From Methylococcales bacterium (GTDB lineage Bacteria > Pseudomonadota > Gammaproteobacteria > Methylococcales > Methylomonadaceae), in the NCBI GenBank assembly GCA_026399095.1, contig JAPLRP010000037.1, positions 1 through 42,192 of the forward strand: 42,192 nucleotides of DNA, written 5' to 3'. The notes beneath the pieces were generated by a model, which was given only the letters and a program-made list of their open reading frames with translations, made no database searches and was not told the origin of the DNA. A program made the translations under genes and the position numbers. Shown here piece by piece: positions 2,948-41,958 of the stretch (within the stretch, counting starts at the first letter, position 1; each line of letters starts with the position of its first letter).

Positions 2948-3250
2948 GTATTACTCCTTTAAAATGGTATGAGTACAATCTGGATGATTTAAAAGTCGCG
3001 TAGTATCGCATAAATGAAGAAATGATGTTTTCTAAGTTAAAGAAGAATTGGCGGGGTAATTGTCAAATTTTTCCTTAAATAAAAAAAGTGTTTTTAAAGA
3101 TGGCAAATAAAGCACTATTAATTACGAAAACTTCAATCTGAAGAGAACTAGAACAAGTTGTCATTAAATGATAAAGTTATTCTATTATTCAGTGAAGATT
3201 CAAGTTGAGAATGACAAGCTTTGGATCTTATAACCCTTGCGATTAAGTTT
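2948..3250. other. AT-rich divergent intergenic region
   Basis: About 300 bases separate purE (-) from the lipoprotein gene (+), so the promoters of both must lie here. The stretch is AT-rich with several A and T runs (for example near 3080-3100). I see no RNA gene, no convincing -35/-10 pair and no conserved operator that I recognise. Confidence 0.5.
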
Positions 3251-3730
3251 ATGAAAATACAAAGCCTTACAAAAAACATTTTTTTTGCTGCCATAATTAG
3301 CATGATTTTAGGGGTATTACTTACCGGTTGTTCAGACGATGAAGAAAAAAAATTGCCGGTTAAAACCAGTTTTAATCCATTTGATCACTCTCATGATGTT
3401 CCTGTGACAGATGTCCAAAAGCACAAGTTTGAGCATGACTTTGCTGAACAATGTGTGACAAGAGAGTTGAAGAATTCTGTGAATATAGAGGAAGATAAGA
3501 TTAGATTTTCTGAATCCTGTCTATGTGTAGCTAATTATATGCTTAAAGATTTAACTGATGAAGAAGCTGAAAAATTTCTTACTGAGCATGAAAATCCACG
3601 GTCATTACAAATCAAGTACAACAGCGCTGCTTATCATTGCGCTCAACAAAAACCCGTAGCTAAGGGCTTTAAAACATTTGAGGCACCTGCTGTTAAAAAG
3701 GAAGAAGGTTTTTTTAGCAAGTTTTTTTAG
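3251..3730 (+). CDS. Small cysteine-containing lipoprotein of unknown function
   Basis: Starting at ATG 3251 the protein has 159 residues. A frame open further upstream begins with TTG at 3221, but the ATG gives a better signal peptide: a basic start (MKIQSLTKN), a hydrophobic core, then the lipobox LLTGC, so the Cys should be lipidated and the protein anchored in the membrane. Serine and aspartates follow the Cys (CSDDEE). The mature part has four further cysteines in the order C, CxC, C (near EQCVTREL, SCLCVANYM and AYHCAQQ), which suggests two disulfides or a metal site. The C-terminus is basic and phenylalanine-rich (GFFSKFF). I do not recognise the family. It is convergent with the bufferin operon, and a functional link is possible but not shown. 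Confidence 0.7.
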   Translation: MKIQSLTKNIFFAAIISMILGVLLTGCSDDEEKKLPVKTSFNPFDHSHDVPVTDVQKHKFEHDFAEQCVTRELKNSVNIEEDKIRFSESCLCVANYMLKDLTDEEAEKFLTEHENPRSLQIKYNSAAYHCAQQKPVAKGFKTFEAPAVKKEEGFFSKFF

Positions 3731-3751
3731 AGGTTCAAGCTTTTTTGTAGT

Positions 3752-3788
3752 TTAGGGGGTAATGTTTTATGGCTCCACCCCCCCCTAA
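3752..3788. repeat. Inverted repeat between convergent lipoprotein and bufC genes
   Basis: TTAGGGGG (3752-3759) can pair with CCCCCTAA (3781-3788) across a loop of 21 bases. The loop is long and no T-run follows on either side. It may be a weak bidirectional terminator between the convergent genes, or chance pairing of G- and C-runs. Confidence 0.3.
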
Positions 3789-3805
3789 TGTTAGTTATCT
3801 TACTC

Positions 3806-4579
3806 TCACGCTAAATTAATAATTCTTTTATCGGCTAATTCTCTTAAAATCTTTAAGCCACCCATAATAATCACTTCAGGATCAGGGTGATTTGATTCCT
3901 GAGCTATTTGGTTTAAATATTCTTCTGTTAGCGAGTATTCTTGTTCCTGGATTATTTCCAGCAAGCGGTAGGTAATGGGGGTAATTTCAATAAAATTAAT
4001 ATCATCATCCTTATTACGGTAAACAATTAGAAATGTTGCTTGTTCAGGCGCCTCCAAAGGTAAAAAAGCAGGCGCTATTTTATGGACCGGATATTGATAA
4101 GCTAAAGGCCAAGCTAACGGAGATAGGGAAATATTTTGCTTAAGCAGATTATTACTATCAAGACCATAAGTCGTTAGGTCATCTTTGGCAATAGATAAGG
4201 CCATTTCCACCCATTCATAATGCGCCAGTTCCAGCAAAAAAGGCAAATCTTTTGAGTTATCACGTTCATTTTGCAAATAATCGAGAAATTCTTCAGGAAT
4301 CTGTGAAAAATGCGGCGTTTTACAAGGGTGTTTTGCAAAAAAATCTTGAACCAGCGCTAACCACTCAGTTTCTTTAAGTAGTGTTTTTAATACCGGAAAA
4401 TTACCCGATAAAAAGCCTTCGATATTATTAAAAAACAACGCTCTATACATTATCATCCGGTGTTCTTTAACATCGGAAGGTGGAAGATTGTTCTCCGGAT
4501 CTCTTATATAAGCCGCAAACTTATCTTGCGTGCTTTTAAAGTCAACATGCTTATTTGCTTTAAGCATATCGTTTTTCAT
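3806..4579 (-). CDS. bufC: DUF2063 (HvfC/BufC-type) partner of the MNIO enzyme
   Basis: The protein has about 257 residues if it starts at ATG 4579 (MKNDMLKANK), preceded by a weak GGAAA. In-frame ATGs at 4597 and 4570 are alternatives, and all overlap the end of bufB, which suggests coupled translation. The N-terminal part (FAAYIRDPEN, EHRMIMYRALFFNNIEGFLSG, split here only for length) is the HvfC/BufC N-terminal domain formerly called DUF2063. The rest is the less conserved second domain, ending in a segment of small helices (GGLKILRELADKRII). In characterised MNIO systems (hvfABC, bufABC) this protein binds the precursor peptide and delivers it to the DUF692 enzyme. It is the last gene of the bufA-bufB-bufC operon. 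Confidence 0.85.
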   Translation of the reverse strand: MKNDMLKANKHVDFKSTQDKFAAYIRDPENNLPPSDVKEHRMIMYRALFFNNIEGFLSGNFPVLKTLLKETEWLALVQDFFAKHPCKTPHFSQIPEEFLDYLQNERDNSKDLPFLLELAHYEWVEMALSIAKDDLTTYGLDSNNLLKQNISLSPLAWPLAYQYPVHKIAPAFLPLEAPEQATFLIVYRNKDDDINFIEITPITYRLLEIIQEQEYSLTEEYLNQIAQESNHPDPEVIIMGGLKILRELADKRIINLA

Positions 4580-5411
4580 GCTGTGTTTTCCACGCATCTT
4601 GCATCGTTTTGATGGTATTAACTTCTTTTAATAATTCACAAAGAGGGGGGAGATTAAAATCTCGTTCCAGCAAGGTAGGGAAAACGCCATAAAGCTCATA
4701 AGCTTTACCTAGCAATTTCCATACGGGATTAATAATGTCGGCGCCGTGGGTATCAATCAGAAAATCATCAGCCTCAACATAATGCCCGGCAATATGAGCA
4801 TAAGCAATTCGCTGCGCTGGTATGGCTTTTAAAAAAGCTTCAGCATCGTAACCATGATTAACGCTATTGACGTAAATATTATTAATATCAATCAATACAT
4901 CGCAGTCAGCTTCTTCTATAACGGCATTAAAGAATTCTATCTCGGCCATTTCTTGCCCCGGTGCCGCGTAATAAGAAACATTTTCGATGGCTATTTTTTG
5001 TTCCAAGATATCTTGTACGCGCTTGATACGACCGGCGACATGGGAAACCGCTTCTGGGGTAAACGGGATAGGCATTAAATCATATAAATGCCCGCCTTTA
5101 CTGCAATAGCTCAGGTGTTCACTATAAAATTTGATTTGATGTTCGGCCATAAATTGTTTGACATCATGGACAAATTTTTCATCAAGTGGATCAGTACTGC
5201 CTAAGGATAATGATAAACCATGACAAACAAAATCAAAGCGTTCTGTCATTGCACGGAATTGTTTGCCGAATTTTCCTCCGATGGTAATCCAGTTTTCGGG
5301 GGCGATTTCGTAAAATCCAACTTCTTTTGGGTGTTCTTCGACAAGCTGACTTAAAAGAGGTCGACGCAGACCTAATCCGGCGCCTTGAACGAGATGTTGA
5401 GTTGTGTCCAT
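4560..5411 (-). CDS. bufB: MNIO (DUF692) multinuclear iron oxidase, bufferin-modifying
   Basis: A 283-residue TIM-barrel protein of the MbnB/TglH/DUF692 family. These enzymes use two or three iron ions to oxidise cysteines in peptide precursors. ATG 5411 is chosen because AAAGGTG lies just upstream; the frame stays open to 5453 without a better start. Probable metal ligands are visible in order: His64 (FVCHGLS), Glu98-His99 (SEHLSY), Glu143 (IENVSYY), Asp175 with the following asparagines (DINNIYVN), His206 and His210 (AHIAGHY), Asp220 and His222 (DTHG), and Glu249 (LLERD). Together these make a complete active site. It lies between the precursor bufA and the partner bufC. In Haemophilus and Caulobacter such operons make copper-binding peptides with modified cysteines, and the same role is inferred here. 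Confidence 0.92.
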   Translation of the reverse strand: MDTTQHLVQGAGLGLRRPLLSQLVEEHPKEVGFYEIAPENWITIGGKFGKQFRAMTERFDFVCHGLSLSLGSTDPLDEKFVHDVKQFMAEHQIKFYSEHLSYCSKGGHLYDLMPIPFTPEAVSHVAGRIKRVQDILEQKIAIENVSYYAAPGQEMAEIEFFNAVIEEADCDVLIDINNIYVNSVNHGYDAEAFLKAIPAQRIAYAHIAGHYVEADDFLIDTHGADIINPVWKLLGKAYELYGVFPTLLERDFNLPPLCELLKEVNTIKTMQDAWKTQHEKRYA

Positions 5412-5442
5412 AAGAACACCTTTTATTAGTAGTCTAGAAATA

Positions 5443-5498
5443 GGAGGGCACAAGAATGCCCTCCTTTTATAAAATAGGTAACGCAGGCACTCGTGCCT
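5443..5498 (-). terminator. Two hairpins between bufA and bufB, likely attenuator
   Basis: GGAGGGCA (5443-5450) and TGCCCTCC (5457-5464) form a perfect 8-bp GC-rich stem with a 6-base loop. AGGCAC and GTGCCT (5485-5498) form a second, tighter palindrome. Both lie after the bufA stop and before bufB on the minus strand. On that strand the first stem is followed by TATTTC, a poor T-run, so partial termination or RNA processing is more likely than full stop. This would let the peptide message outnumber the enzyme messages. Confidence 0.55.
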
Positions 5499-5508
5499 AA
5501 ATCAACTA

Positions 5509-5943
5509 TTATTTAGCGGGCGTAGCCGGTTTTTGAGCGCCACAGGCACCCTCTTTACCTTTCATGGATTCGCCTTTCATCATTTCGCCACAAGCACCTT
5601 CTTTGCCTTTCATCATAGCGCCACAGGCCGCTTCCATACCGGGTTTCATTTTGCCGTCTTTCATCATATCACCACATGAGCCTTCAGTAGCTTTAGTTGA
5701 AGGTTTTGCACTGCTTGCGCATGCGCCTTCAGGTGTTTTGGCTTTAGGCATGTGCATAGAAGCACCACAAGCCATTTCTGCAGGTTTAGCAGTTGTATTG
5801 GCTTCAGCAACTTGCATATAACCGGTAGATAGTTCTGTCATACCGAAGGGGTTAACTTCTGCATTAACAGCTGTTACAGCAAATGTTGAGATTAAAGCAG
5901 CTCCCATAGCAGCCGCTAAGGGTGTTTTATTCATTTTTTTCAT
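5509..5943 (-). CDS. bufA: Bufferin-like RiPP precursor, Cys- and Met-rich, with signal peptide
   Basis: A 144-residue precursor starting at ATG 5943, with GGGAG well placed upstream. A signal peptide (MKKMNKTPLAAAMGAALIST and following residues) ends in AVNA, with cleavage likely after residue 28, so the product is exported. The mature part has six cysteines (59, 75, 90, 107, 118, 134), each in an ExxC motif: EMACG, EGACA, EGSCG, EAACG, EGACG, EGACG. Several are followed by acidic or alanine residues and MMK. The mature part has 14 methionines. EGxCG motifs are the sites where MNIO enzymes convert Cys to oxazolone/thioamide or thiooxazole groups in HvfA and bufferins. It is followed by bufB and bufC. 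A copper-binding or copper-protective role is inferred from the family. The usual fourth gene, a DoxX-like membrane protein, is absent. Confidence 0.88.
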   Translation of the reverse strand: MKKMNKTPLAAAMGAALISTFAVTAVNAEVNPFGMTELSTGYMQVAEANTTAKPAEMACGASMHMPKAKTPEGACASSAKPSTKATEGSCGDMMKDGKMKPGMEAACGAMMKGKEGACGEMMKGESMKGKEGACGAQKPATPAK

Positions 5944-5960
5944 GTTGACTCCCAAATATT

Positions 5961-5994
5961 ATTATAAATATTCGACAGATAAATCCTATCGAAT
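5961..5994 (-). promoter_or_regulatory. Candidate bufA promoter element and operator-like inverted repeat
   Basis: On the minus strand a perfect TATAAT (plus ATTATA, 5961-5966) lies upstream of bufA, next to an inverted repeat ATTCGA...TCGAAT (5970-5975 and 5989-5994) that would cover the -35 region. The TATAAT is very close to the ribosome binding site (5949-5953), which would make an extremely short leader, so the true start may lie elsewhere. The repeat is the firmer observation and could bind a metal-responsive regulator. Confidence 0.35.
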
Positions 5995-6159
5995 GGAACG
6001 TATCATACCAAAGACCAATAAATAAAGAATTAATATACTTTTATCAAAGACGGCTATCACTATTAACAAGCTAAAGGTACTGTAGCTTTACTAATAAGAC
6101 CTTCTAATATTCCATCAGTTATGCCTGGGCTTGGGCTGAGAATGCCATGTCTTTAACTT

Positions 6160-6792
6160 TTAGCTCAGTTTTTCCTTAAAATCACACAGGTCTTCAATAA
6201 TGCAAACCTGGCATTTTGGTTTTCTCGCTATACAAGTATATCTGCCATGTAAGATTAGTAAATGGTGAGCATCTTTTTTATGTTTATTAGGTACCCATTT
6301 ATATAATTTACGCTCTACTTCTAAAACATTTTTGCCAGGCGCCAATCCAGTTCGGTTGGAGACCCTGAATATATGTGTATCAACAGCAATAGTGGGGTAC
6401 CCAAAAGCCGTATTGAGAACAACACTGGCTGTTTTTCTGCCGACTCCGGGTAAAGCTTCCAGTTCGTCTCGTGTTTGTGGAACCACACTGTTATGATTGT
6501 CGATAAGTTGCTGGCAAAGCTTAATAATATTTTCACTCTTGGTATTAAATAAACCAATCGTTTTTATGTAATTTTTTAAATCATCCAAACCCAAGGCCAA
6601 AATAGTTTCCGGCGTATTGGCAATACCAAACAGCGGCAAGGTCGCTTTGTTTACCCCTTTGTCAGTGGCTTGCGCTGATAACACAACGGCAATTAGAAGC
6701 TCAAAGGGGCTAGTATAATTTAATTCTGTTACCGGTTCGGGTATTGCCACAGAGAGTCTTTCAAAAATGGCTAGGCGTTTTTTTTTATTCAT
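6160..6792 (-). CDS. nth: Endonuclease III
   Basis: A 210-residue DNA glycosylase/AP lyase that removes oxidised pyrimidines in base excision repair. The helix-hairpin-helix motif LEALPGVGRKTASVVLN contains catalytic Lys120, and IAVDTHIFR contains Asp138, at the same numbering as the E. coli enzyme. The C-terminal 4Fe-4S cluster loop has Cys187, Cys194, Cys197 and Cys203 with the standard C-x6-C-x2-C-x5-C spacing. Everything expected for activity is present. It is a single gene upstream of the bufferin operon, about 216 bases from bufA, and divergent from the V-ATPase operon. Confidence 0.97.
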   Translation of the reverse strand: MNKKKRLAIFERLSVAIPEPVTELNYTSPFELLIAVVLSAQATDKGVNKATLPLFGIANTPETILALGLDDLKNYIKTIGLFNTKSENIIKLCQQLIDNHNSVVPQTRDELEALPGVGRKTASVVLNTAFGYPTIAVDTHIFRVSNRTGLAPGKNVLEVERKLYKWVPNKHKKDAHHLLILHGRYTCIARKPKCQVCIIEDLCDFKEKLS

Positions 6793-7075: not shown

Positions 7076-8443
7076 ATGAGCATTATTCAGAGCTTGATAC
7101 GTCATACACGCCTGCTGGAAATCGTTGGTGATTTAATACGCGTGAGTGCTCAAGGCGTTGCTTTGGGCGATCTTGCAATGGTTGAAAATATCGACGGCGA
7201 AAAGTCTCTGGCCAAGGTTGTTGATATTGATCGGGATATAGTTAGCCTTCAAGTGTTTGCAGGTGGCAAAGGTTTGTCCACCGATGCCAAAGTTAACTTT
7301 CTTGGGCATCCTCTTGACGTTGTTTATTCCGATAACATTCTCGGTAGAATCTTTAGGGGTTCTGGCCTGCCGATTGATGGTGGGCCGGAATTAACGACCG
7401 ACCCGCGCATTCCAGTGGGTGGCCCCACTGTTAATCCGGTTATGCGAGTGATGCCATCACGGATGATTGAAACCAAAGTTCCCATGATTGATCTATTCAA
7501 TTGTCTCGTAGAAAGCCAAAAAATCCCTATCTTTTCTGTTGCCGGTGAACCCTTTAACGAACTGTTGGCGCGTATTGGTTTTCAAGCTAATGCCGATATA
7601 GTAGTTTTTGGTGGTATGGGTTTGATTTTTGATGACTATCATTTTTTTCGCACTGCTTTTGAAGATCATGGTGTATTTCATCGTACCGTGATGTTTGTCA
7701 ATCAGGCCTCTGATCCTCTGGTTGAGCGCTTGCTGGTTGCTGATATGGCTTTGGCCGTTGCAGAAAAAATGGCGGTTGAAGGTAAAAAGCGGGTACTGGT
7801 ATTACTAACCGATATGACCGCCTACGCCGATGCCATGAAAGAGCTGGGCGTCGCCCAAGAACTCATTCCCGCCGTGCGCGGTTATATGGGTGACCTTTAC
7901 ACACAACTCGCCTCCCGCTATGAAAAAGCCTGTGATTTTAAAGGTGCAGGTTCAGTGACCATTCTCAGTGTAACGACCATGCCCGGTAATGATGTAACGC
8001 ATCCGGTACCGGATAACACGGGTTACATTACTGAGGGTCAGTTTTATTTGCATGATGGATTCATCGATCCGTTTGGCTCACTATCAAGGCTAAAACAACA
8101 TGTTGTGGGTGTGGCTACTCGTGAGGATCATGGGCAAATCATGAACACTATGATCCGTTTTTATTCAGGTGCAGTAGAAGCACAAAAAAAGCAGGCGATG
8201 GCCTTTGATCTTTCCGCGTTTGATGAAAAATTGCTTAAATTTGGTCGTTTGTTCCGGGAGCGCTTTATGGATATTCGCATTTCACTACCGGTTATTCAGG
8301 CTTTGGATCTTTGCTGGTTGACGCTGTCAGAGTGTTTCGATCCAAAAGAACTGCTGATGAAGCAAAACCTGATTGACAAATACTTCCCTAAACCTGCTCC
8401 GGATGCTGCCGAAGAACAGGAAGTTGTGGATAACGTTGCATAA
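7076..8443 (+). CDS. atpB: V-type ATPase subunit B
   Basis: A 455-residue regulatory (non-catalytic) nucleotide-binding subunit of the V1/A1 head. Its position equivalent to the P-loop reads SVAGEPFNELLARIG (from residue 154) and lacks the GKT of the catalytic subunit, as is normal for B subunits. TSVTTMPGNDVTHPVPD-type segments (here LSVTTMPGNDVTHPVPDNTG) and GYITEGQFYLH are family hallmarks. It is the first gene of a seven-gene operon, seven bases before subunit D. In Chlamydia-type operons B follows A, whereas here B leads and A is last. The product should form the A3B3 hexamer with the subunit encoded at 12640-14454. It is not an F-type beta subunit. Confidence 0.95.
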   Translation: MSIIQSLIRHTRLLEIVGDLIRVSAQGVALGDLAMVENIDGEKSLAKVVDIDRDIVSLQVFAGGKGLSTDAKVNFLGHPLDVVYSDNILGRIFRGSGLPIDGGPELTTDPRIPVGGPTVNPVMRVMPSRMIETKVPMIDLFNCLVESQKIPIFSVAGEPFNELLARIGFQANADIVVFGGMGLIFDDYHFFRTAFEDHGVFHRTVMFVNQASDPLVERLLVADMALAVAEKMAVEGKKRVLVLLTDMTAYADAMKELGVAQELIPAVRGYMGDLYTQLASRYEKACDFKGAGSVTILSVTTMPGNDVTHPVPDNTGYITEGQFYLHDGFIDPFGSLSRLKQHVVGVATREDHGQIMNTMIRFYSGAVEAQKKQAMAFDLSAFDEKLLKFGRLFRERFMDIRISLPVIQALDLCWLTLSECFDPKELLMKQNLIDKYFPKPAPDAAEEQEVVDNVA

Positions 8444-8449
8444 ACTGTC

Positions 8450-9079
8450 ATGGCCAAGCTTAAACTTAGCAAACATGCATTACACGAACAGCAAGAACAG
8501 CTAAAACTGTATCAACGACTGTTGCCTTCGCTTGACCTAAAGCGCAGACAATTGACCTTGGAAGTACAAAAAGCGAGAGAAGACTATGCAACTGCCCAAG
8601 TAGCCGTAGATGCTTTGGAAACTCAAATTGGTGAAGAGCTACCGATGCTGGCCGATGAAGAATTTCGTCTTGAGGGCTTGGTACAATTTAGAAGTTATAA
8701 AGTCAGCGAACAAAATGTAGTCGGTGTAAAACTTCCTTTTTTGGACAGTATTGACTGTGAGGTTGCCGACTACTCGCGCCTGGCTACGCCACCATGGGTT
8801 GATACTTTGGTACAACGCTTGAAAGATGCGGCAGAGCAGCGAGTGCGAGCGGAAATATCTGCGGAGCGGTTGCGTATTTTAACGGCGGCAGTGCGACGCA
8901 TTACACAACGAGTCAATCTGTTCGATAAAATTTTAATTCCTACCGCTAAAGAAAATATTCAAAAGATACGCATTTTTTTGGGAGATGCCGAACGCGCCAG
9001 CGTGATCACGTCCAAGCTTGCCAAGAAAAAACAGCAACAACAACGTGAAGCAGAGGAAGCCTCAGAGGCATCATTATGA
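8450..9079 (+). CDS. atpD: V-type ATPase subunit D (central stalk)
   Basis: A 209-residue mostly helical protein. Long coiled-coil helices at both ends (LSKHALHEQQEQLKLYQRLL at the start; RITQRVNLFDKILIPTAKEN near the end) are typical of the rotor shaft that turns inside the A3B3 ring. The VNLFDKILIPTAKENIQ stretch is the conserved D-subunit signature. The C-terminus is rich in Lys, Gln and Glu. It starts seven bases after atpB and overlaps atpI by four bases (ATGA), so translation is coupled. Confidence 0.92.
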   Translation: MAKLKLSKHALHEQQEQLKLYQRLLPSLDLKRRQLTLEVQKAREDYATAQVAVDALETQIGEELPMLADEEFRLEGLVQFRSYKVSEQNVVGVKLPFLDSIDCEVADYSRLATPPWVDTLVQRLKDAAEQRVRAEISAERLRILTAAVRRITQRVNLFDKILIPTAKENIQKIRIFLGDAERASVITSKLAKKKQQQQREAEEASEASL

Positions 9080-10860
9080 GTATCGTTATCATGCATAAGG
9101 TGACTTTTATTGGTATGACTGCCGATCAGGATCTTTTATTAACTGACCTTCAGAAAATGGGTTGTTTACAAATTATTCCACTCGTATCTGGAAGTATAGC
9201 ACTTGCCAAAACTGCATCCACCGCCGGAGCAAATGAGGCGTTAAAGTTTCTGCACACTTATCCCTGGCGAAGACGGCAGGTTTTAGATCCGGAACACTTT
9301 GATGCTATTGACGTTCAGCAACGAAGTCTGGAAGTAAGAAATAACCTGCATAATCTAAAGGATGAACGTGACTTTTTAATCAAGCGCATTCAAGACATGC
9401 GTCCTTGGGGTGATTTTGTTTTACCTTCATTGGCAGATATGGGTAACCTTCGGCTTTGGTTTTATGTGGTTCCCCATAAAATGTTGTCAAAAATTCAGAC
9501 ATTGGCTCCTGTTTGGGAAATTATAAAACAGGATAACCGCTTTTGTTATGTGGTCGTGGTCAGTAAAGACGAGGTTTCAGAAATACCGATTCCTCGCGTT
9601 CATCTGGGTTACAAATCACGTCATGAACTGGAGACGCGACTTGATGAAGTTGAGTTGGCCATTGAAGATGCCCAAGCAGAACGAGCCTATTTAACTCGCT
9701 GGCATGATTTGTTGATGTGCAATCTTAACCAGCTTGAAGATCTCGCTGTTTGTGAGAATGCGGCGGCGAAAGTTTATAGTAATGATTCAACTTTTGCCTT
9801 ACAAGGCTGGGCACCCACCGAGAGCCTGCCAATTCTTGATGATTATTCAAAGCAACAAGCGTTTTACTTTGTATCAGAAGCATCCAAACCAGAAGACAAC
9901 CCACCTACGTTAATGCGCAATATTTCTTGGTTCAGTGCCGGTGAAGATTTGGTTACCTTTTACATGACTCCGGGCTATCGAACCTGGGATCCTTCAGCAA
10001 TAGTATTTGTTTCTTTTGTAATCTTTTTTGCCATGATTCTGGCTGATGCCGGCTATGCCGGACTCATGGGACTGGCTTTACTGTTTCGATGGAAAAGAAT
10101 GGGATATTCATCCTCCGGTCGCCGCTTTCGTCCCTTGCTTTTGTCGATAGTAGGTGCGTCCCTCGTTTTTGGAACGCTAGTCGGCAGTTATTTTGGGGTA
10201 ACGCCCGCTCCTGAATCTTGGCTTGGAAAACTTCAACTGCTTAATATGGACGATACCGACCGAATGATGATGATTTCCGTGGTCATCGGTGTTTTCCATG
10301 TTGTGCTTGCCAATATCATGAATGCCTGCCGTTATGAACATTGGCAGGATCGGTTATCTTCAATCGGATGGATTGGCGTTGTCAGTGGCGGCTTTGCACT
10401 GGCGCTTGGCAATTCATTAAGCATAGCCACTTTGCAAGAACCGAGCATCGCTTTAATGGTCATCGGCGCATTTTTAATCGTGGGATTTACCACACCCGAA
10501 GCAAAGCCCCTAGCCCGTTTTCTTGGTGGCCTGGAGGGATTAACCAAGCTGTCCGGAGCCTTAGGTGATATCTTGAGTTATCTTCGTTTGTTCGCACTGG
10601 GCCTTGGCTCGGCTTCACTGGCTATTGAATTTAACAGTATGGCAACCAATGTTTATCAGGGATACCCTGGAATTGGTTTGGTTTTCGCTTTGTTAATACT
10701 GGTGCTGGGGCATGGCGTTAACTTAATTCTTGGCATCGCCAGTGGCGTCATTCATGGACTGCGTTTAAACGTAATCGAGTTTTTTAACTGGGGTCTCAAA
10801 GAAGAAGGAACCCTGTACCAACCTTTTAAACAATCGGAGGATAATTCATGGAACCGTTAA
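9076..10860 (+). CDS. atpI: V-type ATPase subunit I (a-type membrane stator)
   Basis: A 594-residue protein, at the short end for subunit I/a, as in the Chlamydia-type enzymes. The N-terminal half (about residues 1-300) is soluble with coiled-coil segments (DLQKMGCLQIIPL near the start). The C-terminal half has about seven or eight membrane helices, beginning near YMTPGYRTWDPSAIVF. The functional arginine lies in GDILSYLRLFALGLG, where it faces the ring of K subunits and forms half of the ion path. The last helices contain GHGVNLILG and a conserved HGLRLNVIEFFNWG segment. It overlaps atpK by 13 bases, and the atpK ribosome site CGGAGG lies inside its end. Confidence 0.95.
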   Translation: MSIVIMHKVTFIGMTADQDLLLTDLQKMGCLQIIPLVSGSIALAKTASTAGANEALKFLHTYPWRRRQVLDPEHFDAIDVQQRSLEVRNNLHNLKDERDFLIKRIQDMRPWGDFVLPSLADMGNLRLWFYVVPHKMLSKIQTLAPVWEIIKQDNRFCYVVVVSKDEVSEIPIPRVHLGYKSRHELETRLDEVELAIEDAQAERAYLTRWHDLLMCNLNQLEDLAVCENAAAKVYSNDSTFALQGWAPTESLPILDDYSKQQAFYFVSEASKPEDNPPTLMRNISWFSAGEDLVTFYMTPGYRTWDPSAIVFVSFVIFFAMILADAGYAGLMGLALLFRWKRMGYSSSGRRFRPLLLSIVGASLVFGTLVGSYFGVTPAPESWLGKLQLLNMDDTDRMMMISVVIGVFHVVLANIMNACRYEHWQDRLSSIGWIGVVSGGFALALGNSLSIATLQEPSIALMVIGAFLIVGFTTPEAKPLARFLGGLEGLTKLSGALGDILSYLRLFALGLGSASLAIEFNSMATNVYQGYPGIGLVFALLILVLGHGVNLILGIASGVIHGLRLNVIEFFNWGLKEEGTLYQPFKQSEDNSWNR

Positions 10861-11294
10861 TTTTGACACTGGGCTGGATAGGGCTATACGCGCCGCTGGC
10901 TCTTGGTGCGGTAGGTAGTATGATCGGGTGTGCTCGTGCCGGAAGTGCGGCATGTGGCGCTTTATTGGAAGTCGAAGGCGGCTATGGACGTTATATCGGT
11001 GTAGCCGCGATGCCGTCCTCACAGACCATTTACGGTATCGTTGTTACCATGGCCTTACGTCGTGACCTGACCATTGAAAACGCCCCCGGAATTTTTGGTT
11101 TGGGTATTCTGGTCGGACTGGCCATGTTGTATGGCGCTATCGCTCTGGGTGATGCCTGCGCATCATCAATCAACGTATCCAAAAGCAAGCTGGAAGTTTT
11201 CGGCATATCTCTGGCACCAGCCGCGCTGGTTGAAGGTTTCTCTGTCTTTGCTTTCGTCTTTGCACTCGTGCTGGCTGCAGCAATTCCAAAATAA
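10848..11294 (+). CDS. atpK: V-type ATPase subunit K (proteolipid ring)
   Basis: A 148-residue proteolipid with four membrane helices, the double-hairpin form that makes the rotor ring. Helix 4 holds the ion-binding glutamate in ALVEGFSVFAF. Helix 2 holds MPSSQTIYG, equivalent to the GTQGLYG of the sodium-binding Enterococcus hirae ring. The helix 3 segment IALGDACASSI has Leu where the E. hirae ring has a sodium-ligating Gln, so Na+ versus H+ specificity is uncertain; this alignment was made by eye. The strong site CGGAGG precedes the start. The small residues and GxG patterns in helices 1 and 3 are typical of ring packing. Confidence 0.92.
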   Translation: MEPLILTLGWIGLYAPLALGAVGSMIGCARAGSAACGALLEVEGGYGRYIGVAAMPSSQTIYGIVVTMALRRDLTIENAPGIFGLGILVGLAMLYGAIALGDACASSINVSKSKLEVFGISLAPAALVEGFSVFAFVFALVLAAAIPK

Positions 11295-11313
11295 TCCGGA
11301 CGAGACTACTCAC

Positions 11314-11979
11314 ATGACCGAACAAGCACTCAATAAAACTGATTCAGGCGTTCAGAACCTGGTTGACCGTATTCGTGACCAAGGCGTATTAGCCGCCAAC
11401 GAAAAAGCGAACAAAATTTTACGCGATGCGGAATTAAAGTCTGCAAAAATGTTGGCAGATGCCAAGCTGGAAATCGAAAAACTGCGAGAAACTGCCCGAC
11501 TTGAGATTGAAGCTAATCATGCGGCAGCTTTGGAGGCGCTCAAGCTTTCGGCACGAGATGCGATGCTGCAACTCAAGGCCAAAGTCTCTTCGGAGTTTGA
11601 AGTCTTTGTACAGCGCCTGGTAACATCAGCAACGCGCGACGAGCAATTTATTAAAGCAATCGTGTTGGTATTGGCGGGTCATGTTCAGGAAGAGCTGATT
11701 GAGGACAAGGACATCCAGATTATGCTCTCCGAGTCGATACTCACCGGCAAGCTCAGTGAGGAGTTGGGGGAACGAGCCAAGCAGACCATTCTTTCGCTAT
11801 CCAGCGAAATGTTGCGCCAAGGGGTTGAGTTAATTCCTTCCAGCGACATTCAGGGCGGCGCCAACGTGCGCCTTGTTAAAGATAAACTGGAAATTGATCT
11901 TTCAGACAAGGCAATTGCCAGCTTGCTCTATCAACGGATGATGCCCCGTTTTCAAGCAATACTTGAAGGGTATGAATAA
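11314..11979 (+). CDS. atpE: V-type ATPase subunit E (peripheral stalk)
   Basis: A 221-residue protein starting at ATG 11314 (MTEQALNKTDSG). The frame is open further upstream but that part lies inside atpK in another frame, so the ATG after atpK is the sensible start. The first 110 residues form a long charged helix (EKANKILRDAELKSAKMLAD and on) typical of the peripheral stalk. The C-terminal part is the globular head that contacts the A3B3 hexamer. It begins 19 bases after atpK and ends 5 bases before the next gene. No separate G/H partner of the stalk was found in this operon, as in Chlamydia-type operons. Confidence 0.88.
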   Translation: MTEQALNKTDSGVQNLVDRIRDQGVLAANEKANKILRDAELKSAKMLADAKLEIEKLRETARLEIEANHAAALEALKLSARDAMLQLKAKVSSEFEVFVQRLVTSATRDEQFIKAIVLVLAGHVQEELIEDKDIQIMLSESILTGKLSEELGERAKQTILSLSSEMLRQGVELIPSSDIQGGANVRLVKDKLEIDLSDKAIASLLYQRMMPRFQAILEGYE

Positions 11980-11984
11980 GTAAC

Positions 11985-12650
11985 ATGGCAGAACCCTACA
12001 TTACACTGGTCTCGAGTCTTCCCTATCTGACGTCGTTCGAACGGGCAGAACGGTCGCCTATTACACAGTTACGACTGGAGCAGCGCTTGCATAATTTGGA
12101 ACCCGGCGATGCCAAGCAACTGGCCATTGCTGAAGGACTGATCAGTTGGCGAATGTCCTTGGCAAAACCAAAAACGGACAAGGAAATGGTGCTACGCTAC
12201 CGCGCAGCGCAGCAAGAAATTAGTCAACCCGCTTTACGCGAATTTATCGAATTCAGAATCGATCAACAAACCATACTGGCGGGTTTACGACAAAGCAAAA
12301 CCGTATTTGAATCGGCATTTTTAGAACAGGCTTCCGGTGCAAGTCGTTGGGCAGCTTTTATCGCCTCTCATTGGGATATTCCAGATTTTAAACTGGCAGC
12401 CGTGTATCCCTGGATTCCCGAAGCCCGGAGCTATCTTGACAACAACGATGCGTGCGGCCTAGATAAGCTAATGATGAGCATAATCTGGCGACGACTTAGC
12501 CTGATTGCCGAAAGCAACCGGTTCGGATTCGAGGCGGTTTTTGCTTTCGTTTTTAAATGGGACATTCTTCAAGCCTGGCTGGCTCGCGATGCCGTACAAG
12601 CTAAGAGCCGATTTCAAGAATTGATTAACGAGGTAAAAAATGACCGCTGA
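11985..12650 (+). CDS. DUF2764 family protein, V-type ATPase-associated (C-like)
   Basis: A 221-residue soluble protein. It starts AEPYITLVSSLPYL, which is the typical beginning of the DUF2764 family found between subunits E and A in bacterial V-ATPase operons of Chlamydia and Bacteroidetes. The family is thought to stand in for subunit C/d, which links the rotor to the membrane ring. The role is inferred from position and family. The middle is helical with IIWRRLSLIAESNRFGFEAV, and the end has a segment FKWDILQAW shared with the family. Its last 11 bases overlap the start of subunit A, so the two are probably translated together. Confidence 0.82.
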   Translation: MAEPYITLVSSLPYLTSFERAERSPITQLRLEQRLHNLEPGDAKQLAIAEGLISWRMSLAKPKTDKEMVLRYRAAQQEISQPALREFIEFRIDQQTILAGLRQSKTVFESAFLEQASGASRWAAFIASHWDIPDFKLAAVYPWIPEARSYLDNNDACGLDKLMMSIIWRRLSLIAESNRFGFEAVFAFVFKWDILQAWLARDAVQAKSRFQELINEVKNDR

Positions 12651-14454
12651 AAAACCATTATCAAGAACCGCCAGGATAATTGGGGTCAAAGAAAGTCTGG
12701 TATTGATCGAGGTAGATGATAATACCTCGCTCATGAAAAATGAACTGGGCTTTATCTGCGTCGGTGATGAACGCCTTAAAGCAGAGGTTCTTAGAGTTCG
12801 CAGGCGAACTGCCGACATGCAGGTTTTTGAGGACACGCGCGGAGTGCGTGTTGGTGATACGGTGGAATTAACGGGAGAAATGCTGTCGGCTGATTTAGGG
12901 CCGGGGTTACTGGGACAGGTTTTCGATGGCTTGCTTAATCCGTTACATGCACTAGCCGACAAATACGGTTTTTTTCTGCCTCGAGGCGTTGCCCTAGCAC
13001 CCCTTGACCTGAACAAGAAATGGCTTTTTGAACCTGGCGTTGCCGTAGGTGCCAAGGTGTCTCCCGGTGGTGTCATCGGAACCGTTCCCGAAGGTCAATT
13101 CAAGCACAAAATCATGGTGCCATTTAATGAACCGGAACCCGTTGAGATTATCTGGATTAGGGGCGGTAATCTGGGGATTGAAGAAATCGTCGCCCGTTAT
13201 AAGACCAGCAAAGGAACTGAGCTGGAAATGACGCTCTCCCAGCGCTGGCCGGTGCGCAAACCCATGCCGGAAGCCCTGATTCGTCGCCGCTATGCAGAAC
13301 GTCTTTATCCCTCTGAACCGATTACCACGGCAACCCGCGTTATTGACACTTTTTTTCCCATTGCCCAAGGTGGTACAGGCTGTATCCCCGGGCCGTTCGG
13401 GGCTGGAAAAACCGTTTTGCAAAGCTGTATCGCTCGTTATTCGACGGTTGACATCGTGGTTATCGTTGCCTGTGGTGAACGAGCCGGCGAAGTGGTCGAA
13501 ACCCTGACCGAATATCCGGAAACGACAGACCCTCGTACCGGCGGCACCTTGATGGATAGAACCATTATTATTTGTAACACGTCATCGATGCCGGTTGCGG
13601 CACGCGAAGCCTCCATTTATACCGGCATCACGCTGGGCGAATATTTTCGGCAAATGGGTTATCACGTTCTACTTATTGCTGATTCCACCTCTCGCTGGGC
13701 ACAAGCCATGCGCGAAACCTCAGGGCGCATGGAAGAAATTCCCGGCGAAGAAGCGTTTCCGGCGTACCTTGATTCTTCAGTTAAAAATGTTTATGAACGC
13801 GCGGGGGTTCTTCGTTGCCCCGACGGGTCAACGGGCAGTTTAACCATGATAGGAACCGTCTCGCCTGCCGGTGGCAACTTTGAAGAACCGGTCACCCAAG
13901 CCACGTTGAGTACGGTGAAAACTTTTCTTGGGCTTTCATCTGACCGCGCTTACCGGCGCTTTTACCCCGCCATTGATCCACTTATTTCCTGGTCGCGCTA
14001 TCTTGATCAACTGGCGGTCTGGTTTACCGGGAATATCGACGTAAATTGGGTGCGCGATGTCAAGGCCATGCAGGATTTGCTGGTGCAAGGCGATGTTATT
14101 TATCAAATGATGCAAGTTACCGGCGAAGAAGGTATCACCGAGGAAGACTTTGTCACTTGGCAGAAATCCTTGTTGCTGGACATGGTTTATCTCCAGCAGG
14201 ATGCTTTCGATGCGATTGATGCCTGTATGTCCAGGGAGCGGCAGCTTGAAAGTTTTCATTTGCTAAAAGGCCTTATTGATACCAACTATAATTTCAAGGA
14301 TAAAGATGAAATCAGAAGCTTTTTTACTGAACTGACCAGCCATTACAAAAACTGGAATTATAGCGCTCCCGATTCGGCTGAGTTTAACCGATACCGCAAG
14401 GAAATAATGGACCTTGCATCCCAACATGGCTACATAAAGGCCCAAGAATCCTAA
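12640..14454 (+). CDS. atpA: V-type ATPase catalytic subunit A
   Basis: A 604-residue catalytic ATPase subunit. The Walker A loop is GPFGAGKT with Lys257, and the catalytic ACGERAGE segment follows. The A-specific non-homologous insert (about residues 120-200) separates it from F-type beta subunits. SRWAQAMRETSGRMEEIPGE and YERAG are further family motifs. GAGGTAAA just upstream gives a clear ribosome site inside the preceding gene, which it overlaps by 11 bases. It is the last gene of the operon. In the Chlamydia order it would precede B, so the operon here is a circular permutation. No F subunit gene was found. The 116 bases after it lead into the PPK2 gene on the same strand. Confidence 0.96.
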   Translation: MTAEKPLSRTARIIGVKESLVLIEVDDNTSLMKNELGFICVGDERLKAEVLRVRRRTADMQVFEDTRGVRVGDTVELTGEMLSADLGPGLLGQVFDGLLNPLHALADKYGFFLPRGVALAPLDLNKKWLFEPGVAVGAKVSPGGVIGTVPEGQFKHKIMVPFNEPEPVEIIWIRGGNLGIEEIVARYKTSKGTELEMTLSQRWPVRKPMPEALIRRRYAERLYPSEPITTATRVIDTFFPIAQGGTGCIPGPFGAGKTVLQSCIARYSTVDIVVIVACGERAGEVVETLTEYPETTDPRTGGTLMDRTIIICNTSSMPVAAREASIYTGITLGEYFRQMGYHVLLIADSTSRWAQAMRETSGRMEEIPGEEAFPAYLDSSVKNVYERAGVLRCPDGSTGSLTMIGTVSPAGGNFEEPVTQATLSTVKTFLGLSSDRAYRRFYPAIDPLISWSRYLDQLAVWFTGNIDVNWVRDVKAMQDLLVQGDVIYQMMQVTGEEGITEEDFVTWQKSLLLDMVYLQQDAFDAIDACMSRERQLESFHLLKGLIDTNYNFKDKDEIRSFFTELTSHYKNWNYSAPDSAEFNRYRKEIMDLASQHGYIKAQES

Positions 14455-39882: not shown

Positions 39883-40431
39883 ATGCCTGACAAACCGATC
39901 ATTCTTAACAAAACTACGGTAGCAAAAAGTCGTTTATTCCGTATCGAATCACTGGATATACAATTCAGCAACGGTGAACTCCGTAATTATGAGCGGTTAG
40001 CTCGTGGTAACCCCGGCGGTGCCGTTCTAATAGTACCCATGCTTGATAATGAAACAGTATTGTTAATAAGAGAATATTCAGCAGGTGTTCACCGTTATGA
40101 GGTAGGCTTACCTAAAGGTAAAACAGATGTAAATGAATCCTTTTTAGAGGCTGCCGATAGAGAACTTAAAGAGGAAGTCGGATTTGGTGCAAGACAACTT
40201 CATCATTTAAGTTCTTTCTCATTGGCTCCCTCTTATCTGGAACACACAACAGAAATAGTAATAGCGCGAGATTTATATCCAGAAAAACTAATGGGCGACG
40301 AACCGGAAGAATTAGAAGTAATCCCATGGCAACTTAGCAATATTAACAATTTAATTGCCAGTGGCAAATGTACAGAAGCTCGCTCTATCGCAGCTCTTTT
40401 TATGACTATTGAATACTTTAAAAATTTATGA
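39883..40431 (+). CDS. nudE: ADP compounds hydrolase NudE
   Basis: A 182-residue Nudix hydrolase. The Nudix box is [20 protein letters not shown] followed by LKEEVGF, with the catalytic REL(K)EEVG element. The start [22 protein letters not shown] resembles the NudE family, which cleaves ADP-ribose, NADH, Ap3A and similar compounds. It overlaps the next gene, pgi, by four bases (ATGA), so the two are translationally coupled. It is divergent from yrfG. Confidence 0.92.
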
Positions 40432-41958
40432 CCAAACTTGAACTATGGCAGCGTTATCAGGAATGGCTTTATTACAATAGAGACTTAGATTTCTATCTGG
40501 ATATAAGTCGCATTCGTTTTGATGAACATTTACTGACAACGCTTAAGCCGAAGTTTACAAAAGCATTTAATGACATGAGTGCGCTGGAACAAGGAGCAAT
40601 TGCCAATCCAGATGAAAATAGAATGGTGGGGCATTATTGGTTACGTAACCCTGATTTAGCTCCAGCCAAGCTTAAAGATGAAATCATTAATAACCTCGAA
40701 CAAATAGAAGCATTTGTAAAAAAAATACATGCGGGCACCATTCATCCACCACAAGCTCCAAAATTTACACATATTTTGTCAATCGGTATTGGAGGGTCAG
40801 CATTGGGCCCTGAGTTTGTAGACGAAGCATTAACTTCGCCTTGCCCTCCACTGACTATTAATTTCATCGACAATACTGATCCTGCAGGTATTGATCTAAT
40901 ATTGAACCGCCTGCAGAGCAAACTCAATACTACCCTTGTTATTGTTACCAGTAAATCAGGGGGCACACCTGAAACACGTAATGGAATGCTAGAAGTCAAA
41001 CATGCCTTCGAGCAGCAGGGCTTAAATTTCTCCGAACATGCCGTAGCTATCACTATGCTGGGTAGTAAAATGGACGAACTAGAACGTGTTGAGGGCTGGC
41101 TGGCTGAATTCCCCATGTTTGACTGGGTGGGTGGTCGAACATCTGAAATGTCATCAGTTGGCTTATTGTCAGCTTTATTAGTGGGAATTAATGTTCGTGA
41201 ATTATTAGCGGGTGCCAGAGAAATGGATATTGCTACGCGGATTCCGGAAATTAAACAAAATCCGGCGGCTTTATTAGCTCTTTCTTGGTACTGTGCAGGG
41301 AATGGTAAAGGTGAAAAAGATATGGTTATTTTGCCTTACAAAGACAGTTTGCATTTATTTTCTCGTTACTTACAACAATTGGTTATGGAGTCTCTAGGTA
41401 AAGAAAAAGATCTTGATGGTAACCTTTGTGCAGCAATTACGTGATGGAGTTGCAAATTTCTTTGCGATATTTATTGAAGTGCTTGAAGACAGAAACGGTC
41501 CATCTATCAATGTAGAACCTGAAGTAACATCAGGTGATTTTCTTTCTGGATTTTTGCAGGGTACTCGGCAAGCTCTTTATGACAATAATCGAGATTCTAT
41601 TACGATAACAATTCCACAAGTAAACTCAAAAACAATTGGAAGTCTTATTGCATTATTCGAGCGTGCAGTTGGTTTCTATGCCTCATTAATAAACGTAAAT
41701 GCCTATAATCAACCTGGCGTTGAAGCCGGGAAAAAAGCAGCAGAAGCATTATTGGACTTACAAAGAAAAATATTGTCTATTTTGAGAAATACTAATCTGC
41801 CCATCAATTTATCTGAACTTACTGAAAAATTAGAGACTACTGATCAAATTGAACATGTGTATAAGATAGTCAGGCATCTTGCCGCCAATAACCGAGGCGT
41901 TTATTTACAGGGCAACTTGGGCAACCCGGCAGAACTCAACATCGCTTATCGCCATTAA
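40428..41958 (+). pseudogene. pgi: Glucose-6-phosphate isomerase, broken by an internal deletion and frameshift
   Basis: The first part (40428 to about 41423) is a normal start of the isomerase, with [28 protein letters not shown] and [17 protein letters not shown]. After [10 protein letters not shown] the frame shifts and stops at TGA 41442-41444. The next frame continues from 41425 as [13 protein letters not shown] to the normal C-terminus at 41958, including [12 protein letters not shown] and [13 protein letters not shown], which carries the catalytic Lys. In relatives the two are joined by about 19 residues that include the GNKGSTDQHA segment with an active-site His. So roughly 56 bases are missing (estimate from the family pattern). 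As read, no active enzyme can be made. All else is intact, so the loss is recent or a sequence error. Confidence 0.88.

Follow-up and report, generated by a model that had tools for sequence, protein, structure and literature searches.

A predicted captophorin-type operon with lysine-free cysteine sites in methanotroph-like Methylococcales, and its probable role in periplasmic copper binding

Introduction

What would a methanotroph-like bacterium do with an exported, cysteine-rich peptide whose predicted modification sites lack the lysine found in its better-known relatives? The question is raised by three genes on the minus strand of a 42,192-nt contig of a Methylococcales bacterium (JAPLRP010000037.1, assembly GCA_026399095.1; the whole stretch is called the window here), encoding in this order a precursor peptide, a multinuclear non-haem iron-dependent oxidase (MNIO) and its DUF2063 partner. 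Our answer, which we hold to be probable, is that they form an HvfABC-type captophorin operon whose product is a periplasmic Cu(I)-binding variant, most likely a copper buffer or reservoir.

In lakes and wetlands, Methylobacter-type methanotrophs act as important filters for methane; to our knowledge, how methanobactin-less methanotrophs handle copper for their main enzyme is poorly known. The operon is relevant to this problem because the only MNIO found in the host genome adjoins the peptide gene and most of the genus retains the precursor: with the host counted, 31 of 35 genomes have it, though in one case just as a 21-residue piece at a contig edge. Its lysine-free sites also constitute a natural test of what the lysine beside the cysteine does, and of whether methionine joins in metal binding.

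A preliminary description had reported an operon for a ribosomally synthesized and post-translationally modified peptide (RiPP), consisting of precursor, MNIO and DUF2063 partner, in a methanotroph-like host. That much is confirmed: the arrangement is not a chance one, because all 180 cysteine sites of the same-genus precursors keep an [E/D]xxC[G/A] rule and both enzymes exceed their HvfB and HvfC cut-offs, and the host carries a PmoA/AmoA-family gene. What had gone unremarked is the change from lysine to alanine or serine before each cysteine, the CGxMM register as a trait of a clade, a hairpin between the first two genes and an upstream dyad.

Family assignment of the operon

The MNIO gene (5411..4560, 283 aa; DUF692, PF05114) matches the HvfB equivalog model NF003818 of NCBIfam with 439.4 bits (cut-off 360, E 4.6e-132). 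It stays below the cut-off of the BufB model NF050167 (266.8 bits against 310) and far below that of the MbnB model TIGR04159 (50.9 against 325). The partner gene (4579..3806, 257 aa), which overlaps the end of the MNIO gene, encodes a DUF2063 protein with a RiPP recognition element (RRE; Pfam PF09836 with PF22106) and matches the HvfC equivalog model NF050145 with 308.5 bits (cut-off 142, E 3.6e-92). The closest solved chains are 3bww for the MNIO (E 3.4e-73) and 3dee for the partner (E 1.7e-9), both named as members of such gene clusters in the accessible text of PMC13097082. These scores and nearest chains place the operon with the HvfABC (oxazolin/fontiphorin, 'captophorin') type and its EGKCG group, though no site in the window reads EGKCG. 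The bufferin assignment of the preliminary description thus has to be replaced: in addition to the BufB score, DUF2282 (PF10048) has no match in the precursor or anywhere in the genome. Methanobactin membership was rejected on the MbnB score.

Individual residues of the enzyme agree with this placement. Its motifs GLGLRR (R16/R17) and ERDF (D251/F252) match those of the Lys-Cys group and are the counterparts of R15/R16 and D249/F250 of FonB. Relatives' MNIOs have GLGLRR or GIGLRR, and ERDF or, in two loci, ERDL, among the named loci in which the motif was detected (the first was missed in three loci, the second in one locus cut by a contig end). Unlike the Buf2 (Cys-Lys) enzymes, which according to the available part of PMC13097082 have Asp after the catalytic Asp, the window MNIO has Phe there.

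With the HvfABC system of Haemophilus influenzae (oxazolin), fontiphorin (FonABC), gonophorin and bulbicupramide, the operon shares the A-B-C gene order and the HvfB and HvfC families. A precursor with repeated ExxC[G/A] sites lies directly upstream of an HvfB-type MNIO and an HvfC-type DUF2063-RRE partner, as expected of captophorins; the lysine before the cysteine is absent. Because this lysine is a feature of a sub-group and was dispensable for FonBC in the accessible sections of PMC13097082, its absence marks a variant. Bufferins of the Buf1 (DUF2282) and Buf2 kinds are likewise Sec-exported MNIO/DUF2063 products with probable thiooxazoles and copper. Methanobactin (MbnABC), known from methanotrophs, also depends on an MNIO that turns cysteines into copper-binding heterocycles; unlike it, the window has a large precursor with a Sec-like signal and a DUF2063 partner rather than MbnC.

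The preliminary description had placed a complete MNIO directly after the precursor. The enzyme is indeed complete, but its start is the ATG at 5411; the TTG at 5453 given in the open reading frame (ORF) list falls within the intercistronic hairpin, so that a 97-nt gap containing this strong hairpin separates the two genes. The absence of a DoxX gene, listed as a peculiarity, is not one, since the fon operon also has three genes only (PMC13097082, accessible text). No DoxX gene lies 3' of the operon, where the next gene (3221-3730) is convergent, and PF07681 has no match in the 98%-complete host genome, other DoxX-like families lying outside the search.

A precursor with lysine-free sites

The precursor gene (5943..5509, 144 aa, hvfA-like) has no NCBIfam or Pfam model above its cut-off. 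It opens with a Sec-type signal (codons 1-28, 5943..5860), judged by eye, and its N-terminal part reads MKKMNKTPLAAAMGAALISTFAVTAVNA / EVNPFGM..., where the slash is the cut predicted by eye after residue 28 (AxA motif). Behind the signal comes EVNPFGMTELSTGYMQVAEA, followed by the core; a NPFGMTELSTGYMQVAEA segment between signal and core is conserved. The predicted mature part of 116 residues has 6 Cys and 14 Met, as previously described. Each cysteine sits in an ExxC motif, the sites being EMACG, EGACA, EGSCG, EAACG, EGACG and EGACG, with Ala instead of Gly after the cysteine at one of them, and CG-x-MMK occurs three times. At position 3, immediately before the cysteine, the six sites have five Ala, one Ser and no Lys. 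The precursor thus resembles the EGKCG captophorins in its Sec-like signal, its NPF..GY leader (as in the class-wide precursors) and its repeated ExxCG sites, along with the RR and DF residues of its enzyme, and differs from them in the small residue at position 3 of all six sites, the one EGxCA site, the CGxMM spacers and the hairpin between A and B. For comparison, the available part of PMC12538549 gives five to eight EGKCG cysteines for Microbulbifer precursors.

The change from EGKCG to E-x-[A/S]-C-[G/A] is confined to a clade. Relatives in the order but outside this clade mostly have Lys at position 3 and share the same NPF...GY leader. Class-wide, 30 HvfB loci were sampled, 24 of which (own included) had a captophorin-like precursor and 6 did not (2 cut, 4 with other ORFs); Lys was the majority residue at position 3 in 20 of the 23 precursors other than the window's, the rest having Gln, Arg or Asn, and none mostly Ala, Ser or Gly. 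In a tree of 100 MNIOs, built by a quick method and with 47 of 97 inner branches open, all 58 small-residue precursors fell into a single branch of 61 rows (Shimodaira-Hasegawa-like approximate likelihood ratio test, SH-aLRT, 100), and outside it there were none among 39. The set had been cleared of duplicate MNIOs and duplicate loci, of loci whose precursor could not be read and of those offering fewer than two sites to count. In the three remaining rows of the branch, Lys occupies at least half of the sites counted, and sister rows have mixed sites (L031, for example, has DGKCG, AGKCG and EGACG); the position-3 label requires at least four changes on the tree. Four MNIO columns changed with the clade (T43, M55, T73, F161); we found no reason tying them to position 3.

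Together with a fixed methionine register, the hairpin and the dyad, the lysine-free position 3 is, from the comparison of sequences, what sets the operon apart from classic members. A search by title and start of abstract found no paper on lysine-free or methionine-paired captophorins in methanotrophs, supplements and most subscription papers being outside its reach. The EGACG motif appeared in none of the 12 papers listed by one such search, with supplements again outside its reach, and these sequences may be among those of Data set S2 of PMC13097082. Nothing on the operon was found in a search of the methanotroph copper literature, including the accessible portion of PMC3621798, and the available text of PMC12452194 counts some 4,000 MNIOs of the main cluster without a named precursor family alongside.

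The methionine register

In the 58 small-residue precursors, Met stands at +3 from 44% and at +4 from 66% of the cysteines, where shuffling predicts 13%; in the 23 class-wide Lys-type precursors the values are 4% and 14%, with 6% and 5% expected, kinship among the sequences being left uncorrected in all these tests. In an alignment of 20 precursors (the window's and our selection of 19 from the 79 named loci), none of the six cysteines is lost where it could be aligned. Behind the leader, Met positions are on a par with Gly and Glu and more conserved than residues other than Cys and Met (0.96 versus 0.81, permutation p 0.011, for these 20 sequences picked from 80). By residue, conservation was 0.97 for Gly, 0.96 for Met, 0.93 for Glu, 0.92 for Lys, 0.76 for Ala and 0.50 for Ser.

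Conservation in relatives

Of 61 genomes, the host's and those of 60 relatives, 49 gave a precursor match. The titles of 75 of the 79 named loci with a precursor relative read Methylococcales, Methylococcaceae or a member genus (Methylobacter, Methylovulum, Methyloglobulus, Methylomonas, Methylomagnum and Crenothrix, which we take to belong to the Methylococcales); the other four (L151, L152, L153, L160) are titled only proteobacterium or gammaproteobacterium. The co-occurrence check suggested by the preliminary description showed the A-B-C order on a single strand in 73 of the 79 loci. The exceptions have no B in the sequence examined (L091, L105, L134, L146), no C (L154, cut) or no A at the E limit (L161). 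After the NPF leader, every cysteine has E or D at -3 and G or A at +1 (180/180 in 30 same-genus precursors, L001-L030, own included, L030 being cut); 16 of the 79 named loci yielded no precursor to the pattern used for site counting.

Some relatives are built differently. Longer precursors with 12-13 Cys occur in L111 (Methylovulum miyakonense HT12), L094, L103, L107, L122, L126, L141 and L145; their extra block, which the window precursor lacks, has cysteines that do not follow the ExxC pattern (QCGE..., KGCGEGMQGC). The usual distance between precursor and MNIO is about 100 nt; it reaches about 600-700 nt in L151, L152, L154, L156, L157, L158 and L160, some of them titled Methylomonas, and about 1.7 kb in L155.

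Hairpin, dyad and promoter-like element

The hairpin GGAGGGCATTCTTGTGCCCTCC (5443..5464, minus strand) lies between the precursor and MNIO genes. Among 28 same-genus sequences (L001-L030 without L025 and L030, which meet contig ends), 99.1% of the cells in its eight pairs can pair, a share that falls to 39-55% in slid controls, and 19 cells are changed on both sides. None of 500 shuffles scored as high in percentage paired or in covariation; 459 of 500 were as high in number of further pair types, so that this measure does not support the hairpin. The segment 5409-5511 folds with -34 kcal/mol (z-score -4.7). A stem longer than chance (p<=0.05, shuffling) was found in 45 of 57 small-residue loci and in 3 of 41 others, from 98 of the 100 tree rows, with 25 of the 41 unscored because fewer than 40 nt separate the genes and with the longest stem of a locus not always the same hairpin. 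The hairpin was absent from a consensus terminator scan and is rejected as an intrinsic terminator, which makes RNA stabilization or processing likelier than termination; no known RNA family reached its gathering score in 3600-6300. Probably the hairpin sets the ratio of the two products, with more precursor than enzyme.

In the 5' leader, the conserved dyad ATTCGATAGGATTTATCTGTCGAAT (5970..5994, minus strand) has 93.1% of cells paired in 31 sequences (L001-L031), compared with 16-47% when slid. Two of five shuffle measures lie within chance (97 of 500 shuffles as high in two-sided change, 100 of 500 in pair types), and the dyad is broken in L025. Its z-score of -0.8 led us to reject a stable RNA hairpin, so that a DNA operator is as likely as a weak RNA hairpin. 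Its pattern has a single match in the host genome. Further upstream lies a near-invariant promoter-like element, GGTCTTTGGTATGATA (6001..6016, minus strand), in which TATGAT resembles a -10 hexamer (by eye); its only exact copy in the host genome is this one. A regulon sharing it was considered and rejected: with up to three mismatches there are 22+23 places, against 17+21 for a reversed control, near background. The contig that carries the PmoA/AmoA-family gene has the one place with a single mismatch, about 0.7 kb beyond that gene and, from its position, probably inside pmoB. Other families of the order (L037, L043, L046, L047, L038, L040, L042) have a different upstream pattern, by eye resembling a promoter for an extracytoplasmic function (ECF) sigma factor: TGTAAG or AACTTT/GACTTTT, then GTCTA.

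Host genome and copper context

The host genome comprises 2.77 Mb in 94 contigs, the window being contig 37. It has one PmoA/AmoA-family gene (432 bits) and one MNIO match, the one adjoining the precursor; DUF326 (Csp-type) has no match in it. Another genome of the genus has a second MNIO (G013:C5:29720-31651), followed at a distance of about 1 kb by a DoxX-family gene; the two may form a separate cluster of bufferin type.

Discussion

The following sequence of events would account for these features. The partner protein would grip the precursor by its signal/leader end, and the MNIO would use an iron centre and O2 to oxidize each ExxC cysteine to a 5-thiooxazole with loss of 4 H. Sec export and cleavage would then release a disordered, multi-site Cu(I) ligand into the periplasm, where the Met pairs at +3/+4 probably supply thioether ligands beside the thiooxazoles. 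In the methanotroph clade Ala or Ser has replaced the lysine before most or all cysteines. The hairpin would probably hold the precursor above the enzyme in amount, and the peptide would buffer or store periplasmic copper for a bacterium with a strongly copper-demanding main enzyme.

Work on related enzymes is consistent with such a scheme. In the parts of PMC13097082 available to us, all characterized MNIO and DUF2063 pairs of the group are said to form 5-thiooxazoles (-4 H per Cys), and products of such pairs generally bind copper; 5-thiooxazoles bind copper in the available text of PMC13419390 as well, where HvfBC modified the full-length peptide far better than the signal-less one. FonBC processed Ala at position 3 (EAACGEGACG) and, among single variants at position 5, only Ala besides Gly; one fully different motif with Tyr at position 5 was modified once, and Arg at position 1 and Pro variants were not processed (PMC13097082, same parts). 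Since FonBC accepts the change from Lys to Ala there, 5-thiooxazole formation is likely in the window peptide, and because the six sites fit these tests and the MNIO keeps RR/DF, we infer that up to six cysteines are modified and that the peptide is exported by Sec and binds Cu(I), the thiooxazoles presumably being helped by Met. The probable copper ligand of the preliminary description is in this sense upheld.

Several observations count against a copper buffer or reservoir of this kind. Twelve of the 61 genomes have no precursor match, four belonging to the genus and eight to the order, and there are precursor-like genes without an MNIO (L033, with 4 kb downstream examined, and L146, with about 1 kb). 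The 18 Lys-type precursors of the order, two of which (L148 and L149) belong to the 61-row branch, also show a Met peak, a weaker one (24% at +3 and 15% at +4, 5% expected), so that the register is common to the order in weaker form; the uncorrected kinship noted above further tempers these comparisons. Met-rich repeats, which the preliminary description had taken for a peculiarity, recur in classic precursors: Met makes up at least 10% of the residues behind the leader in 6 of the 23 class-wide ones, reaching 17.5%. The tested variants named in the accessible part of PMC13097082 include neither Ser at position 3 nor Met at position 2. The AlphaFold model of the precursor is disordered (mean predicted local distance difference test score 46) and tells nothing about the geometry of the sites. 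Inspection by eye showed no copper gene beside the operon, five window proteins having been run through NCBIfam and Pfam, and because no upstream element recurs in the genome, the operon is not tied to a copper regulon. All evidence for the predicted modification, copper binding and role of the peptide in this clade is comparative. The second precursor-like gene at L033 (G036:C104), in a genome of the same family, is of EGKCG type.

A metal-stress shield is quite possible, a little short of evenly balanced in our estimate. The peptide would be made at high copper, under other soft metals or under oxidative stress to trap the excess, and the methane monooxygenase context would be incidental. 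This is the role proposed for known bufferins and captophorins, and the family is widespread: of 114 class genomes (own included), 75 have an HvfB match with E<=0.001, and in 35 of these it exceeds the cut-off of the model. The neighbours, in which no sigma factor or NrsF-type gene was seen by eye, and the upstream elements, which have no second exact genome copy, speak weakly against it.

The buffer or reservoir could also take a more specific form, in which thiooxazoles and Met at +3/+4 would make composite sites peculiar to methanotrophs, holding copper loosely and loading methane monooxygenase from the reservoir in Methylobacter-type bacteria; we regard this elaboration as unlikely.

Quite unlikely, in our view, is that the lysine-free sites are poor substrates, with some cysteines modified and the rest remaining plain thiols beside Met in a mainly metallothionein-like peptide. 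The Lys majority in 20 of 23 class-wide precursors would fit this, as would the few precursor-like genes without an MNIO in the sequence examined, and the Ala variant was tested in a short peptide of two repeats with a different enzyme, FonBC (PMC13097082, available text). That it was processed at all argues in the other direction, as do the retained flanks (E or D at -3, G or A at +1) of all 180 genus sites and the 73 of 79 loci in which the precursor has an MNIO and its partner as neighbours.

That the peptide or pieces of it leave the cell and return copper, as methanobactin does, is very unlikely, despite the copper need of methanotrophs, the shared MNIO chemistry and the lack of any other MNIO, hence of an MbnB, in the genome, given the large precursor with a Sec-like signal, the best MbnB score of 51 bits against 325, the lack by eye of an adjoining transporter or TonB-dependent receptor, and the proposal in the accessible part of PMC13097082 that captophorins sequester copper.

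Other features of the window

A defence role was considered and rejected, since the MNIO gave no more than a weak match to AbiEii (E 0.0015), and plasmid carriage gave no match. The convergent gene at 3221-3730 (plus strand) is lipoprotein-like, with an LTGC lipobox and several Cys; its TrbK match in NCBIfam is weak and below the cut-off. At 40428-41958 a glucose-6-phosphate-isomerase-like frame, named by eye, is apparently split: 40428-41444 resumes in another frame at 41413-41958, through a frameshift or an assembly error. Near the captophorin operon lies a V/A-type ATPase-like operon (7076-14454), likewise named by eye.

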